Shown piece after piece: positions 2,159-10,125 of a stretch of 64,000 bases of DNA. This DNA is from an uncultured Clostridia bacterium. Its GTDB lineage: Bacteria > Bacillota > Clostridia > Oscillospirales > Acutalibacteraceae. Made by a program: the position numbers and the translations under genes. The DNA lies in contig CALWIO010000002.1 of NCBI GenBank assembly GCA_944380765.1, positions 1 to 64,000 on the forward strand. The letters run 5' to 3'. The notes beneath the pieces were generated by a model. That model saw only the letters and a list, made by a program, of their open reading frames with translations. It was not told the origin of the DNA and did not search any database. Within the stretch, counting starts at the first letter, position 1; every line of letters starts with the position of its first letter.

Positions 2159-2247
2159 TGGCGGAGAGTGTGGGATTCGAACCCACGGTACCGTGAGGTA
2201 CAACTGATTTCGAGTCAGTCCCGTTATGACCACTTCGATAACTCTCC
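2159..2247 (-). tRNA. tRNA-Ser(CGA)
   Basis: Read on the minus strand: acceptor GGAGAGT pairs with ACTCTCC, then discriminator G and an encoded CCA (2159-2161). The anticodon stem ACTGA/TCAGT encloses the loop CTCGAAA, giving anticodon CGA (decodes UCG). A long variable arm (GTACCTCACGGTACC region) and the T-loop GGTTCGAATCC are as expected for class II tRNA-Ser. The integrase lies downstream of its 3' end, making the tRNA a probable attachment site. Confidence 0.96.
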
Positions 2248-4911: not shown

Positions 4912-4927
4912 CCCGTAAATAAGATAA

Positions 4928-4957
4928 AAAAACTGCCGGTATCAGCCGGCAGTTTTT
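4928..4957. terminator. Bidirectional terminator between GH4 and the ABC exporter
   Basis: 12-bp stem AAAAACTGCCGG / CCGGCAGTTTTT with a 6-base loop. It ends the plus-strand sugar operon and the converging minus-strand ABC operon, touching the ABC stop codon. Confidence 0.9.
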
Positions 4958-6750
4958 CAGTTGTTGTATTTTTCCGCTTGCAGATTGAACATATAAGCGT
5001 ATGTTCCGCCCTTTTCCATAAGCTCCCGGTGACTTCCGCTTTCAACAATTCTGCCGTTTTCCATTACATATATTTTGTCGGCGTTTACGGTGGTTGAAAG
5101 CCTGTGCGAGATAAATATTACCGTTTTGTGACCGGCGGCTTCCATCATAGCCTGGTTCAGGTTGTATTCCGCAATCGGGTCAAGGTTAGCCGACGGCTCG
5201 TCAAGAATAACATAGGGGCAGTCCTTGTAAAAAGCTCTCGCGACGGCGACTTTCTGCGATTCTCCGCCCGAAAGCATTACGCCATCATCGTCAAATTCCC
5301 TTAAAAGCTCCGTTTCGGTGCCGTTTTTAAGTTCTTTTTCAAAACCGCTGTGCTTTAAGGCGTTTTTTACTCTTTCCCTGTCGGGCGAATCGTCAAGGGC
5401 GACATTTTCGGCAAGAGTGCACGCAAAGGTCTGAAAGTCCTGAAAAACTGCGGCAAAACGGCCGCGGTGAGAGGAGGGGGTAACCGCTTTTATGTTTTCG
5501 CCGTCAATCAGTATTTCGCCCTCGGTCGCGTCATAAAGCCGCAGCAAAAGATTTGTCAGCGTGGTTTTGCCTGCTCCGTTGTAGCCTACAAGCGCTATTT
5601 TCTGATAAGGCTCAATGGTTAAATTGATGTCCTGCAAGGTGGGCTTTTCGTTTCCGGGGTAGGTAAACGAAAGATTTTTTATCTCAATTTTTTTAGGCTT
5701 AGTTAAAGCCGCGGTTTTTCCCGTTTCCTTTATTTTGAAGCCGGCGCTTAAAAATTCCCTGTATTTTTCAATCATTTTAGCGCGCTCCGAAAAGTTCGCT
5801 ATCGCCCATACTGTCAAAAAGTTTATTGACATGGCTATTGAATAGGCGCCGTTGAATGTGGCTACAAAATCGCCGGCGCCGAGGCTTTTTCTGACAATTA
5901 CCGCGTAGCCGAGGTACAAGGGCAGTATAAACAGAAATCCGAGACACTGTATGCCCACATTCTGGATACTGTAAAGAAGCGCGATTTTGGAGTGGTATTT
6001 TTTCTGGTTTGCTATAACATCGTCTGCGGCGTCATTGTAGCGCTCAATAAGCAGAGGCTTAATGCCGTTCATTCTGACTTCTTTCGCGTAGTCCTGTAAA
6101 TAGAATATACGCTGGAAATAGTCGGACCTGCGGTGATAGCGGGTGTTTTCAATACGCCTGCCCATCTGCAAATCGCCGACTTTCAGGCTCAGCGGCATAA
6201 AAATAACAATTATAACAAGTATTATCGCAAGGCATACGGGGTCAATAGCCAAAAGCACCGACGATACGGTAAACAGCGCAATCAGGTTGCCCATATAGTT
6301 GCGCACAAGACCTAAAAGGTTTTGTATGTTATCCGAGGACGATTCAATGGTAAATATAAAGCTGTTGTAAAATTCGGGATTGTCATAGGATTCAAGGTCA
6401 AGGCTCTTTGCCTTTTCGTACAGCTTTTTGTTCAGCCCGTAATAGACCTTTTCGCGTTTGGCGTTCCAGAAAAATTCCCTGAAAAGCCACGAAATCGTTG
6501 TGCTCAGAATCAGCACCGCCGCGATTGCTATAACAGCGTAAATTATCCTTTCCAGATTTTCGCCCGAGGATACCGTGTCAATTATGTATTTAACGCCTAT
6601 AACGCTTATCAGCTTTGAAGGCAGAATCATCAGCACGCCCCATATCATTTCACCTATAACCAGAAGGGGAGAAATGCTGAAAAGCAGGCGTATAAAGTAG
6701 AAAATATTAGAGGGCATTGAGTGTGCCGTTTTTTCTTTTTTGTTTTTCAT
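4957..6750 (-). CDS. ABC exporter half-transporter (permease-ATPase fusion), second subunit
   Basis: 597 residues: an N-terminal membrane domain with about six hydrophobic helices and a C-terminal ATPase domain with Walker A GYNGAGKTTL, Q-loop region VFQDFQTFA, signature LSGGESQKVAVARA, Walker B YVILDEPSANLDP and the switch His in ISHRLS. No N-terminal C39 peptidase domain is present. Its ATG overlaps the stop of the upstream exporter gene by one base, so translation is coupled and the two subunits probably form a heterodimer. The upstream 38-residue peptide gene suggests peptide export (inference). Confidence 0.92.
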   Translation of the reverse strand: MKNKKEKTAHSMPSNIFYFIRLLFSISPLLVIGEMIWGVLMILPSKLISVIGVKYIIDTVSSGENLERIIYAVIAIAAVLILSTTISWLFREFFWNAKREKVYYGLNKKLYEKAKSLDLESYDNPEFYNSFIFTIESSSDNIQNLLGLVRNYMGNLIALFTVSSVLLAIDPVCLAIILVIIVIFMPLSLKVGDLQMGRRIENTRYHRRSDYFQRIFYLQDYAKEVRMNGIKPLLIERYNDAADDVIANQKKYHSKIALLYSIQNVGIQCLGFLFILPLYLGYAVIVRKSLGAGDFVATFNGAYSIAMSINFLTVWAIANFSERAKMIEKYREFLSAGFKIKETGKTAALTKPKKIEIKNLSFTYPGNEKPTLQDINLTIEPYQKIALVGYNGAGKTTLTNLLLRLYDATEGEILIDGENIKAVTPSSHRGRFAAVFQDFQTFACTLAENVALDDSPDRERVKNALKHSGFEKELKNGTETELLREFDDDGVMLSGGESQKVAVARAFYKDCPYVILDEPSANLDPIAEYNLNQAMMEAAGHKTVIFISHRLSTTVNADKIYVMENGRIVESGSHRELMEKGGTYAYMFNLQAEKYNN

Positions 6751-8570
6751 TAAATCTCCTCCTTTCCGGCGCTTTTGTAGCTTGAAGCCTGTAACGCAAA
6801 CATTTTGCTGTATTCGCCGCCGCTGTTCATAAGTTCGCGGTGCGTTCCGCTCTCAATGATTTTTCCGGCTCCCAGTACAATAATTCTGTCGGAAAGCACG
6901 GCGCTTGACAGCCGGTGCGATATGTAAATTACTGTTTTGCCGCGGGTAATTCCGATAAGATTTTTATACATACGGTATTCCGCGATAGGGTCAAGGGCTG
7001 AGCTCGGCTCGTCAAGAACGGCTATTTCAAAATCTTTCGCGAACAGCCTTGCCGTTGAAACTTTTTGATTTTCACCGCCGGAAAGTCCTGCTCCGTTTTC
7101 GTCAAATTCCCTTGTAAGCACCGTGTCGCCTTTTTGGGGCAGGGAATCAATTTTTTCCCATACTCCGCTTTGAATAAGGGCTGTTCTCGCGGCGGCTTTG
7201 TCCTTTTCGTCACATTCGCGGCAGATAATGTTCTCAAAAACGGAAACGGCAAAGTTCCTGTAATCCTGAAATACCGTGCCGTATGCGTTCCTGAGCGATT
7301 CAAGATTATACTCCTTTATGTTGACTCCGTTATAGAGTATTTCACCCTCGTTCGGGTCATAAAAGCGCAGCAGCAATTTCACAAGCGTTGATTTTCCTGC
7401 GCCGTTGACGCCGACTATCGCTACCGTTTCGCTCTTTGTGATTTTAAAGGAAAGATTGTCAAGCGCTTTTTTTGAGGCGTTGGGATATGTAAACGAAACC
7501 GAGCGAAATTCAAGGCTCTCAAATTTGCCGGCGTTTTTATCTCCGTCCTTTATGTGAGGCTCATATTCAAAAAAGTCGCGCAGATTCTGAAAATATAACG
7601 CCATCTGCGTAAGCTCGTCAAATCCCTGCGCTATTTCAAGGGTGGATTCCCTGACGGAATTTATAGAAGAGAGCACTACCGAAAAGCCCGATACTGTAAG
7701 CGTCTTTTTAAATACAAATTCGTATCCTGCGTAGGCGTATGTGCCTATAACTGGTATAAAATCGCTGAAAAGCGAGCTTACCATACTGTAAATAAACAGC
7801 TTGACGCCGTATTTTTTCAGTATTTTCACATTGGCGTCAATCGCCGCCTTAAAGCGTTTCATAAGCACCGCGAAAATGTTTGAAGTGCGCATATCCTTTG
7901 AGTATTCCTTTAAGAACATAGTGCGCTGTATGTACGCTTTTACGCGGTTGTTCTTTGTCATTTTAAGGTCCCGCCGGTAAACCTCCTTGCTTTTGAAGGT
8001 CTCTATAATAAAAACAAGCGTTACGGGCAGCAAAAATAATATGTAAACCGGATTTATAACGGTAACGGTGGTAATAACGCAGATAAATGTGATTATGCCG
8101 GCTATAATTGCCGAAACATTGTAGCAAAGAAGGTCAAAATATCCTGCCGAAAGCACAAGAGTAGCCCTCTGGTAACTGTCGTAAAAAGCCGGGTCCTCGT
8201 AGCAGCCCACATCAAGGGACGCCGCTTTCTTGAATACCATATTGTTGAGCACCTTCAACGCTCTTTTTACGGCTACGCAGCGGTAATAGTTAAACCGGAA
8301 ATAAAGAATTGTCAGCGCCGCCGAAATTAAAAGAAACAAAACAAGATATTTAACATATTCAGAAAAACTGCTGCCGCCGTCTATTAACGAGAGCAGTACC
8401 TTTAAAAACAGAATATTCTGAATAAACAGCGAAAGCACCCGGTCGCTGATAATTGAAACAAGATAACCTATAAGTATCATTTTGTCCGCTTTACATATAA
8501 GGCACAGAGCGTAAAAAATATTTTTGAAAACAGGCACTTTTACCTGTTCGTGCAGTTTAATATACCTCAA
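6750..8570 (-). CDS. ABC exporter half-transporter (permease-ATPase fusion), first subunit
   Basis: 606 residues with the same layout as its downstream neighbour: six-helix membrane domain, then Walker A GVNGAGKSTL, VFQDYRNFA, signature LSGGENQKVSTARLF, Walker B AVLDEPSSALDP and ISHRLS. The LSGGENQK...EPSSALDPIAEY pattern is one I associate with exporters of small peptides in Gram-positives (established in general, assignment here inferred). Start is TTG at 8570, preceded by GGGGTGATTTGTT; no ATG fits. A hairpin plus T-run lies just upstream of the SD, so expression likely depends on read-through from the peptide gene. No peptidase domain. Confidence 0.9.
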   Translation of the reverse strand: MRYIKLHEQVKVPVFKNIFYALCLICKADKMILIGYLVSIISDRVLSLFIQNILFLKVLLSLIDGGSSFSEYVKYLVLFLLISAALTILYFRFNYYRCVAVKRALKVLNNMVFKKAASLDVGCYEDPAFYDSYQRATLVLSAGYFDLLCYNVSAIIAGIITFICVITTVTVINPVYILFLLPVTLVFIIETFKSKEVYRRDLKMTKNNRVKAYIQRTMFLKEYSKDMRTSNIFAVLMKRFKAAIDANVKILKKYGVKLFIYSMVSSLFSDFIPVIGTYAYAGYEFVFKKTLTVSGFSVVLSSINSVRESTLEIAQGFDELTQMALYFQNLRDFFEYEPHIKDGDKNAGKFESLEFRSVSFTYPNASKKALDNLSFKITKSETVAIVGVNGAGKSTLVKLLLRFYDPNEGEILYNGVNIKEYNLESLRNAYGTVFQDYRNFAVSVFENIICRECDEKDKAAARTALIQSGVWEKIDSLPQKGDTVLTREFDENGAGLSGGENQKVSTARLFAKDFEIAVLDEPSSALDPIAEYRMYKNLIGITRGKTVIYISHRLSSAVLSDRIIVLGAGKIIESGTHRELMNSGGEYSKMFALQASSYKSAGKEEI

Positions 8571-8584
8571 AACAAATCACCCCT

Positions 8585-8618
8585 AAAAAAATAAACCGCA
8601 GACTGTCCGCCTGCGGTT
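8585..8618 (-). terminator. Intra-operon terminator/attenuator between peptide gene and ABC genes
   Basis: Minus strand: stem AACCGCAG / CTGCGGTT (8618-8594) with a 9-base loop, followed by TTATTTTTTTA and then directly the SD of the ABC gene. Its position would give much more peptide mRNA than exporter mRNA, as in bacteriocin and signal-peptide operons. Confidence 0.8.
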
Positions 8619-8646
8619 AAAAATCTATATTTATCGCGCTTAAAAA

Positions 8647-8763
8647 TCAATAAATATAAAAATCCACCCACGGAGGAACAGAACAAAACGCACCGGCGCT
8701 GTCCATATCGGAATACGGTCTGCGTGACATCATATCAACTGCGTAAAGCATTGTGTTTTTCAT
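8647..8763 (-). CDS. 38-residue putative exported peptide precursor
   Basis: Begins MKNTMLYAVDMMSRRPYS and ends AFCSVPPWVDFYIY, with DMDSAG between. The ATG at 8763 is preceded by GAAAGGAGGAAAAGTTA, one of the strongest SDs in the window, and by a good promoter (8808-8836). The front half is polar and charged; the last 14 residues are aromatic and hydrophobic with a single Cys and a Pro-Pro, so it looks like leader plus core with a possible break near DSAG/AF (inference). It is not a classical Sec signal peptide. It lies directly upstream of two ABC exporter genes, separated by an attenuating hairpin. No modification enzyme is adjacent. I do not recognise the family. Confidence 0.7.
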   Translation of the reverse strand: MKNTMLYAVDMMSRRPYSDMDSAGAFCSVPPWVDFYIY

Positions 8764-8781
8764 TAACTTTTCCTCCTTTCG

Positions 8782-8802
8782 TCAATTTAAAAAATAAATT
8801 GA
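8782..8802 (-). promoter_or_regulatory. Perfect inverted repeat around the peptide-gene transcription start
   Basis: TCAATTTA / TAAATTGA, 8-bp arms with a 5-base centre, located between the -10 box and the SD, roughly at the expected transcript start. It could be an operator or a 5' UTR hairpin. Confidence 0.45.
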
Positions 8803-8807
8803 TTTAA

Positions 8808-8836
8808 AGAATAGCACAGCTTTTTTTACAAGTCAA
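8808..8836 (-). promoter_or_regulatory. Sigma-A promoter for the peptide/ABC operon
   Basis: Minus strand TTGACT (8836-8831), 17-base spacer, TATTCT (8813-8808), 45 bases upstream of the peptide start codon. Confidence 0.75.
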
Positions 8837-8885
8837 GAAAAATTATAAAATTTATATAAATAAATTTATTTTGGTATATTATTTG

Positions 8886-8914
8886 TTGTTTATTGATTAT
8901 GCTTGTGCTATAAT
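8886..8914 (+). promoter_or_regulatory. Promoter for the MFS transporter gene
   Basis: TTGTTT at 8886-8891 and TATAAT at 8909-8914 with a 17-base spacer, 29 bases ahead of the start codon; divergent from the peptide/ABC promoter. Confidence 0.65.
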
Positions 8915-8943
8915 CCAAAGGAAATTTCAAAAGAGGTGCGCCT

Positions 8944-10125
8944 ATGATACTTCTTCTTGCGGTAATTTATATTGTTTTTATATCTCTGGGACTTCCCGAC
9001 TCGCTTTTCGGAGTTGCTTGGCCGGTAGTGCATACCGAGTTCGGTATAAACGAGGGCTTCGCCTCGGTTTACAGCGTTGTAACGGGCGTGTGTACGGGCG
9101 GAGTCAGCTTTTTTGCCGGCAGACTGCTGAGAAAATTCGGAACCGGGCCGGTTACTTTTGTATCAATAATTTTAACCGTAATCGGCATTGTCGGAATGAG
9201 CTTTTCGCCTAATATTGCGGTGATGATGCTTTTTGCCGTGATTTTAGGCTACGGAGCCGGAGCCATTGATACCGGACTTAATAACTTTGTTTCGCTTCAT
9301 TACAAAGCGCACCACATGAACTGGCTTCATTGTTTCTGGGGAGTGGGCGTTACGGCGAGTCCCCTTATAATGTCGGCGTTTTTAAGCGATGAGTCAGGCT
9401 CGTGGAGGGCGGGCTACCGTGTTATTGCCGTAATTCAGCTTAGTATTGCCGCGCTTGTGCTTTTTTTGCTTAAACGCTGGAAGAAGGTTGAAAACGAGGC
9501 CGAAGAAAAGTCCGAAACCGAAGAAAAGGGGAAGGACAAAACATTTTTTGAGATACTTAAAATCAAAGGCGCAATTACGGGTATTCTCGCCCTCGGGTTT
9601 TACTGCGCTATGGAATTTTTGCTCGGGACATGGGGCGCGAGCTATCTTGTAAATGTCTATTCATTAACGCCGGACGCAGCGGCAAAATGGGTGTCGCTTT
9701 ATTACGGAGGAATAATGCTCGGGCGGTTTGTTTCCGGTTTCGCGGCGTTAAAGCTGTCGGATAAAGCGCTTATAAGAGGCGGAATAGGCTTTGCTCTCGC
9801 GGGAATTGCCGTGCTCGCTCTGCCGCTGGGCAAAGCGTCAATTTGCGGATTTTTGCTTATAGGTATGGGCTTCGGCCCGATTTTTCCGAGCGTTCTTCAC
9901 AGCGTGCCCGACAGGTTCGGGCATAAGTATTCGGCGGACCTCACAGGCTTTCACATGGGCGGCGCCTACGCCGTAGGATTCGGCGCCCAGCTTCTGTTCG
10001 GCTATACCGCCTCAGCCACAACCTTTAAAATTACGCCCTATGTTTTAATGGCGTTTTGTATTCTGCTGATTGCCGCCAATGAGATAACCGTTACTCTGAC
10101 CTCAAAGAGCAAAAGCGGCAGGTAA
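8944..10125 (+). CDS. Major facilitator superfamily transporter
   Basis: 393 residues with about twelve hydrophobic segments and a charged central loop (RWKKVENEAEEKSETEEKGKDK near 180-200), the classic 6+6 MFS arrangement. The loop-2/3 motif appears as FFAGRLLRKFG, a variant of the MFS A-motif, and is echoed in the second half as GRFVSGFAALKLSDK. Substrate cannot be read from sequence; the overall pattern resembles sugar/organic-solute or drug MFS permeases of Firmicutes. ATG follows AGAGGTGCGCCT. Transcribed divergently from the peptide/ABC operon from its own promoter and closed by its own terminator, so it is a single-gene unit. Confidence 0.9.
   Translation: MILLLAVIYIVFISLGLPDSLFGVAWPVVHTEFGINEGFASVYSVVTGVCTGGVSFFAGRLLRKFGTGPVTFVSIILTVIGIVGMSFSPNIAVMMLFAVILGYGAGAIDTGLNNFVSLHYKAHHMNWLHCFWGVGVTASPLIMSAFLSDESGSWRAGYRVIAVIQLSIAALVLFLLKRWKKVENEAEEKSETEEKGKDKTFFEILKIKGAITGILALGFYCAMEFLLGTWGASYLVNVYSLTPDAAAKWVSLYYGGIMLGRFVSGFAALKLSDKALIRGGIGFALAGIAVLALPLGKASICGFLLIGMGFGPIFPSVLHSVPDRFGHKYSADLTGFHMGGAYAVGFGAQLLFGYTASATTFKITPYVLMAFCILLIAANEITVTLTSKSKSGR

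Follow-up and report, generated by a model that had tools for sequence, protein, structure and literature searches.

What does a short open reading frame (ORF) encode when it stands behind a strong Shine-Dalgarno (SD) sequence and ahead of two ATP-binding cassette (ABC) exporter genes, an exported peptide or a regulatory RNA? This question is raised by a 38-codon ORF (8647-8763; MKNTMLYAVDMMSRRPYSDMDSAGAFCSVPPWVDFYIY) in a 64,000-nt stretch of DNA from an uncultured Clostridia bacterium, hereafter the window, in which all coordinates of the locus lie on the minus strand. An earlier, sequence-only reading took the ORF to encode a precursor from which a 14-residue core is exported. According to our results, the ORF is most likely an RNA switch and not an exported peptide; with a probability of about 0.8, a ribosome-mediated transcription attenuator controls a two-subunit ABC exporter, the ORF being, by present evidence, the sensor frame of this attenuator and not a precursor. 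An open frame of 38 codons is unremarkable alone, and its significance comes from its position, its SD and its recurrence.

In the proposed mechanism, when no ribosome is present the SD would pair with a complementary (anti-SD) segment inside the ORF, the downstream terminator would form and the pump would be off; when a ribosome translates rapidly as far as the stop codon, the anti-SD would lie under it, and the terminator would again form, leaving the pump off. A ribosome stalled between the start codon and approximately codon 9 would cover the SD and leave the anti-SD strand free to pair with one terminator arm, while codons 14-16 would pair with the other, and this antiterminated fold would allow RNA polymerase to read through and turn the pump on. 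The pairing topology hence predicts a ribosome held early as the sole on-state, absent or fast ribosomes giving the off-state. By analogy with characterised systems, the trigger would be antibiotics that target the ribosome, or further compounds able to stall elongation early, and the ABC pair would act as an inducible drug efflux pump.

Leader ORFs upstream of orthologous exporters

Orthologs of the first exporter gene (ABC1) occur at 57-72% identity in many relatives, and upstream DNA was collected from 117 distinct loci, among them those of a remoter ABC subgroup (46-49% identity). An automatic filter accepted SD-led ATG ORFs that have 15-60 codons and a terminator behind them; 38 non-redundant leaders passed, three automatically chosen loci (L068, L075 and L108) were taken out as false leaders, and 35 were kept, so that the strong SD and ORF are present in the window and in 34 other non-redundant leaders. 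Among the close orthologs, 95 had sufficient upstream DNA and 43 of these passed the filter; a relaxed scan added one further leader, present at two loci (L099 and L162). Four ABC pairs lacking a leader (L037, L120, L132 and L133) directly follow the end of a different coding frame, and therefore seem to be transcribed from the promoter of another gene.

The window locus starts with a sigma-70-type promoter (TTGACT-17-TATTCT, with an extended -10 TG; 8808-8836), recognised by its sequence and its recurrence: a promoter of the same form lies upstream of 29 of the 35 comparable leaders in relatives (1.5 expected), so that a chance match can be dismissed. Between the leader ORF and the ABC genes, terminator scan and folding place an intrinsic terminator, the putative attenuator hairpin, with its T run (8594-8618; AACCGCAGGC-GGACA-GTCTGCGGTT-TATTTTTTT). 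The region holds 15 terminator-like sites against a shuffled mean of 5.0, and this one, with 10 pairs, ranks among the strongest of them.

Alternative pairing within the leaders

Pairing tests and folding assign the leader SD (GGAGGAA, 8770-8776) a second role as the 5' arm of an SD:anti-SD helix, formed when the ribosome is absent with UUCCUCC in codons 29-31 (8672-8678; p = 0.01 against shuffles, and the swap test described below). The anti-SD is overlapped by the predicted antiterminator strand CUGUUCCUCCGUGG (8668-8681), whose partner is 8616-8603, that is, the rising arm and loop of the terminator; pairing and folding calculations thus show two alternative partners for this strand, the leader's own SD or the terminator rising arm. 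The falling arm (GUCUGCG) has its own antiterminated-fold partner, CGCAGAC in codons 14-16 (8718-8724), in the minimum-energy fold of the early-stalled state.

Side-by-side comparison revealed that nearly every leader SD region has its complement in the 3' portion of the ORF it serves, with joint changes on both sides: GGCAGAA/UUCUGCC, GGUGAACA/UGUUCACC, GGCGAACA/UGUUCGCC, AGCGGGCGU/ACGCCCGCU and GGUGGACAAAA/UUUUGUCCGCC, with GGAGGAA/UUCCUCC in the window. The SD:ORF pairing is stronger than in dinucleotide shuffles (p<=0.05) in 27 of the 35 non-redundant leaders. In a permutation that swaps partners among leaders, which removes the composition effects of both sides and is made conservative by close relatives among the swapped partners, the observed sum was -547.8 against a permuted -412.5 (standard deviation 14.3, z=-9.5), the own partner was favoured at 34 of 35 loci, and a control against the region 5' of the SD gave p=0.19.

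The terminator rising arm, too, has a complement in the ORF of many leaders, in sequence that overlaps the anti-SD or lies close to it, as in L093 (CUGUCCG/CGGACAG), L067 (UCUGCCC/GGGCAGA), L105 (UGCCAAC/GUUGGUA) and L076 (CAAUUUGCCG/CGGCAGAUUG). The corresponding swap test gave -424.9 against -369.9 (standard deviation 12.4, z=-4.4, p=4e-5), with p=0.09 in its control. Together, these comparisons show the predicted double pairing, with covariation, again and again in orthologous operons whose leaders have diverged.

An Rfam scan of the region returned sub-threshold chance matches only. The DNA pattern AGGAGGCAGAA-N75..105-TTCTGCCC, sought before other genes in 150 genomes, had zero matches, the pattern being too strict and the sample one that may miss carriers.

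Folding under simulated ribosome cover

The window leader was folded with its 5' end masked stepwise, as cover by a ribosome. The probability of the terminator was 0.95 with nothing masked and 0.10-0.00 with the first exposed base from -7 to +41. It recovered to 0.87-0.96 at +47 to +59, dropped again to 0.46 at +71 and stood at 0.97 from +101 on. The front edge of a ribosome lies approximately 15-16 nt beyond the P site, so the masks that give the on-state place the ribosome anywhere from the start codon to roughly codon 9. The fold predicted for this state joins 8681-8668 to 8616-8603 and pairs the falling arm with codons 14-16 (8724-8718). When 300 leaders were dinucleotide-shuffled, with SD and terminator kept, not one displayed a switch of this size. 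Family covariation and the state switch of the window thus point to a mutually exclusive antiterminator built from leader-ORF sequence.

Across the family, equilibrium switching at p<0.05 was found in 12 of 35 leaders, with a mean drop of 0.154 against 0.010 in shuffles. Most leaders keep the terminator at equilibrium even with the SD covered, as would be expected if the terminator merely lowered pump expression by constitutive read-through while the SD:anti-SD helix limited translation of a meaningless ORF; yet the rising arm covaries with the ORF (the z of -4.4 given above), which is needless for a plain terminator, and we regard constitutive read-through as extremely improbable. For the attenuator to operate in the non-switching leaders, the antiterminator would have to be in place by the time RNA polymerase reaches the falling arm. 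In a partial transcript ending before the falling arm, the rising arm was paired upstream with a probability of 0.41 when free, 0.59 with a ribosome stalled early and 0.26 with a ribosome at the stop codon.

Conservation of the encoded peptide

A tblastn search with the window peptide in 300 genomes of the family, including three congeners, gave chance-level matches only, and the peptide matched nothing in NCBIfam, Pfam or PHROGs. The leaders are 18 to 45 codons long, and their sequences are unrelated save within subgroups (...MDSVNIVFCPER... and ...PVIVSASC); by eye, MDSAGAFCSVPP of the window leader is akin to the ...MDSVNIVFCPER... subgroup. A second, shorter leader type of 18-24 codons ending in ...PVIVSASC (L042-L048) stands upstream of the more distant ABC subgroup (e.g., L044). 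The conserved codons of this type hold UCCGG, the complement of the terminator arm, and GUGUCC, the complement of the SD; therefore, apparent peptide conservation can be RNA conservation.

Pooled over twelve close pairs, not all independent, the proportions of non-synonymous (pN) and synonymous (pS) differences in the leaders were 0.072 and 0.079, a ratio of 0.92 that comes from small counts (approximately 71 non-synonymous and 20 synonymous changes). The ABC1 genes of the same pairs gave a pN of 0.063 and a pS of 0.436 (ratio 0.14), so that synonymous divergence is 5.5-fold lower in the leaders. Leader DNA is thus constrained alike at both kinds of site, which indicates an RNA element and not a selected peptide. 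A conserved precursor under purifying selection, as required for a bacteriocin, a ribosomally synthesized and post-translationally modified peptide (RiPP) or a peptide signal, was not found. The sequence-only reading had itself named beforehand, as observations that would count against it, the lack of a conserved small frame upstream of orthologous ABC pairs and equal frequencies of synonymous and non-synonymous change; the peptide is not conserved and the two kinds of change are about equally frequent.

These results bear directly on the possibility that the ABC pair exports the aromatic C-terminal half of the ORF product, which would serve as a bacteriocin or signal, and that the terminator does no more than set the stoichiometry of precursor to exporter. 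The gene order is compatible with it, internal terminators that set stoichiometry are known in clostridial ABC operons from the available part of one report (PMC9045158), and some leader subgroups have residues in common (MDS..FC; PVIVSASC in L042-L048). However, these residues are encoded where the anti-SD and antiterminator strands lie, the codons of the supposed core in the window hold its anti-SD/antiterminator sequence, and no peptidase or modifying enzyme accompanies the genes. Furthermore, approximately half of the orthologous pairs do without such an ORF, and the exporter therefore does not need the peptide. Taken together with the lack of conservation, this makes an exported product very unlikely.

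Early codons and possible stalling signals

If the ORF is the sensor of an attenuator, its first codons would be those at which a ribosome stalls. Across the leaders, Lys and Arg number 70 in codons 2-11 against 34 in codons 12-21, and +X+ motifs, of the kind found in known macrolide-stalling leaders, occur in 12 leaders against 4.5 expected, the window leader having none. Both enrichments fit drug-dependent stalling. An attenuator of the trp or ilv type, sensing amino-acid or tRNA shortage ahead of a pump that exports a metabolite, would use identical RNA logic, ribosome position being decisive there too; however, codons 1-9 hold no run of one amino acid common to the leaders, with early basic residues and +X+ motifs instead, and no biosynthetic pathway lies among the neighbours, so we find shortage sensing improbable.

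The exporter pair and its neighbourhood

As described in the sequence-only reading, the promoter, the strong SD, the 38-codon ORF, the hairpin with its T run and two overlapping ABC genes are all present, and its proposal of an operon with an attenuator-like internal terminator ahead of an ABC exporter pair was borne out. ABC1 (6750-8570; 606 amino acids) has a TTG start, with an SD region recognised by eye (AGGGGTGA, 8577-8584), and overlaps by one base with ABC2 (4957-6750; 597 amino acids), the second half-transporter; a terminator predicted to work in both directions closes the operon (4927-4958). Domain scans and fold search characterise ABC1 as a half-transporter devoid of a peptidase domain. 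Its model (predicted local distance difference test score 73, predicted template modelling score 0.58) belongs to the type IV ABC exporter fold class, matching MsbA, TmrAB, TM287/288, PCAT1 and BmrCD alike, and these matches give the fold class alone and not the substrate. The membrane part is divergent: Pfam ABC_membrane is below cut-off in ABC1 and absent in ABC2, and a PDB profile search restricted to the transmembrane part had no match at 1e-5.

The two proteins are approximately 34% identical, yet both hold consensus nucleotide sites (Walker A and B, the Walker B Glu, LSGGE and the H-loop His). We infer that they form a two-subunit exporter, and a two-gene type IV ABC exporter downstream of a leader is the arrangement of a bmrCD-type operon. 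Domain scans found no C39 domain in either protein and no peptidase or other maturation enzyme, including RiPP enzymes, among the neighbours scanned, in agreement with the earlier remark that no C39 peptidase, radical S-adenosylmethionine or cyclase gene is nearby.

The neighbours are housekeeping or unrelated genes: a GH4/PfkB pair, a major facilitator superfamily (MFS) gene, YpeB, a cysteine desulfurase and ThiI. The MFS transporter gene (8944-10125) is transcribed divergently out of the intergenic region (8808-8944) that also contains the attenuator promoter, and the two might be co-regulated. Farther away, 13-2456 contains a ParB-like gene, a tyrosine recombinase (862-2067) and tRNA-Ser(CGA) (2159-2247, minus strand), and 51 nt of the tRNA-Ser(CGA) region recur as an 84% copy at 2406-2456; the arrangement suggests the terminal part of an element inserted at tRNA-Ser, the copy being an att-like repeat. 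The assembly amounts to 1.73 Mb in 31 contigs, and its nearest named relatives are metagenome-assembled Clostridia or Oscillospiraceae, mostly from herbivore guts.

Discussion

Several points weigh against the attenuator. The leader ORF is missing at about half of the orthologous ABC pairs, and the loci are related by descent, which makes the p-values of the leader-wide tests optimistic. In the window, the arm:ORF duplex alone is within chance (p=0.32 against shuffles; +2.9 kcal double-centred), and the switch there consequently rests on the whole-fold calculation, while around two thirds of the leaders have no equilibrium switch and would need co-transcriptional kinetics. The early Lys and Arg enrichment may come partly from A-rich initiation regions. 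Lastly, ABC1 and ABC2 do not have the one degenerate nucleotide site typical of characterised heterodimers, as found in PatAB (PMC9541285).

With the attenuator as the preferred explanation, a presumed bacteriocin gene becomes a likely antibiotic-responsive efflux-pump switch, and a member, matching no Rfam model, of an attenuator family whose diverse leaders span many uncultured gut Clostridia. More speculatively, and with doubt prevailing, in this exporter clade of herbivore-gut Clostridia the first ten or so codons might diversify freely while the RNA switch is kept, each leader serving as a stalling sensor for different gut ribosome inhibitors, including natural products not yet known. In general, short SD-led ORFs upstream of ABC exporters can pass wrongly as peptide precursors, and an attenuator can be told from a precursor by covariation under partner swapping, by pN/pS set against the pS of a neighbouring gene, and by folding in ribosome states.

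Comparison with known systems

A patAB attenuator of Streptococcus pneumoniae was reportedly described by Baylay and Piddock in 2015, to judge from the title alone; a transcriptional attenuator ahead of a heterodimeric multidrug ABC exporter would be common to both loci. One nucleotide site is degenerate in PatAB (PMC9541285), whereas both are consensus in the window pair.

The uORFC-6-1 motif and similar upstream-ORF RNA motifs, in the available parts of their descriptions (PMC8632094, PMC11109978), combine an upstream ORF with covarying structure and predicted antibiotic-induced stalling, as in the window; they are not matched there to the window's operons, and the window leader has no Rfam match.

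With the macrolide attenuators of mef(E)/mel, msr and erm(K), the window has in common an AGGAGG-led leader with basic residues, alternative hairpins and a terminator upstream of resistance or efflux genes (PMC4335068), and the same ribosome-position logic is established for mef(E)/mel. Those leaders have 8-15 codons and an MRLR-type stall site, whereas the window leader has no +X+; moreover, they control MFS/ABC-F genes or methylases, and that of the window an ABC exporter pair (PMC4335068).

In the bmrB-bmrCD system of Bacillus subtilis, ribosome-targeting antibiotics induce a heterodimeric multidrug exporter through an experimentally demonstrated attenuation mechanism that requires leader translation (PMC4191407). 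Both loci display a short leader ORF, an intrinsic terminator with an alternative antiterminator, two ABC exporter genes and a decisive role, in the window a predicted one, for ribosome position (PMC4191407). The terminator of bmrB lies within the leader coding region, whereas that of the window lies beyond the stop codon, with the anti-SD inside the ORF, and both nucleotide sites of the window pair are consensus, unlike those of bmrCD-type heterodimers. Drug induction is experimental for bmrB-bmrCD and, for the window, drawn by analogy from a likeness of layout and logic.

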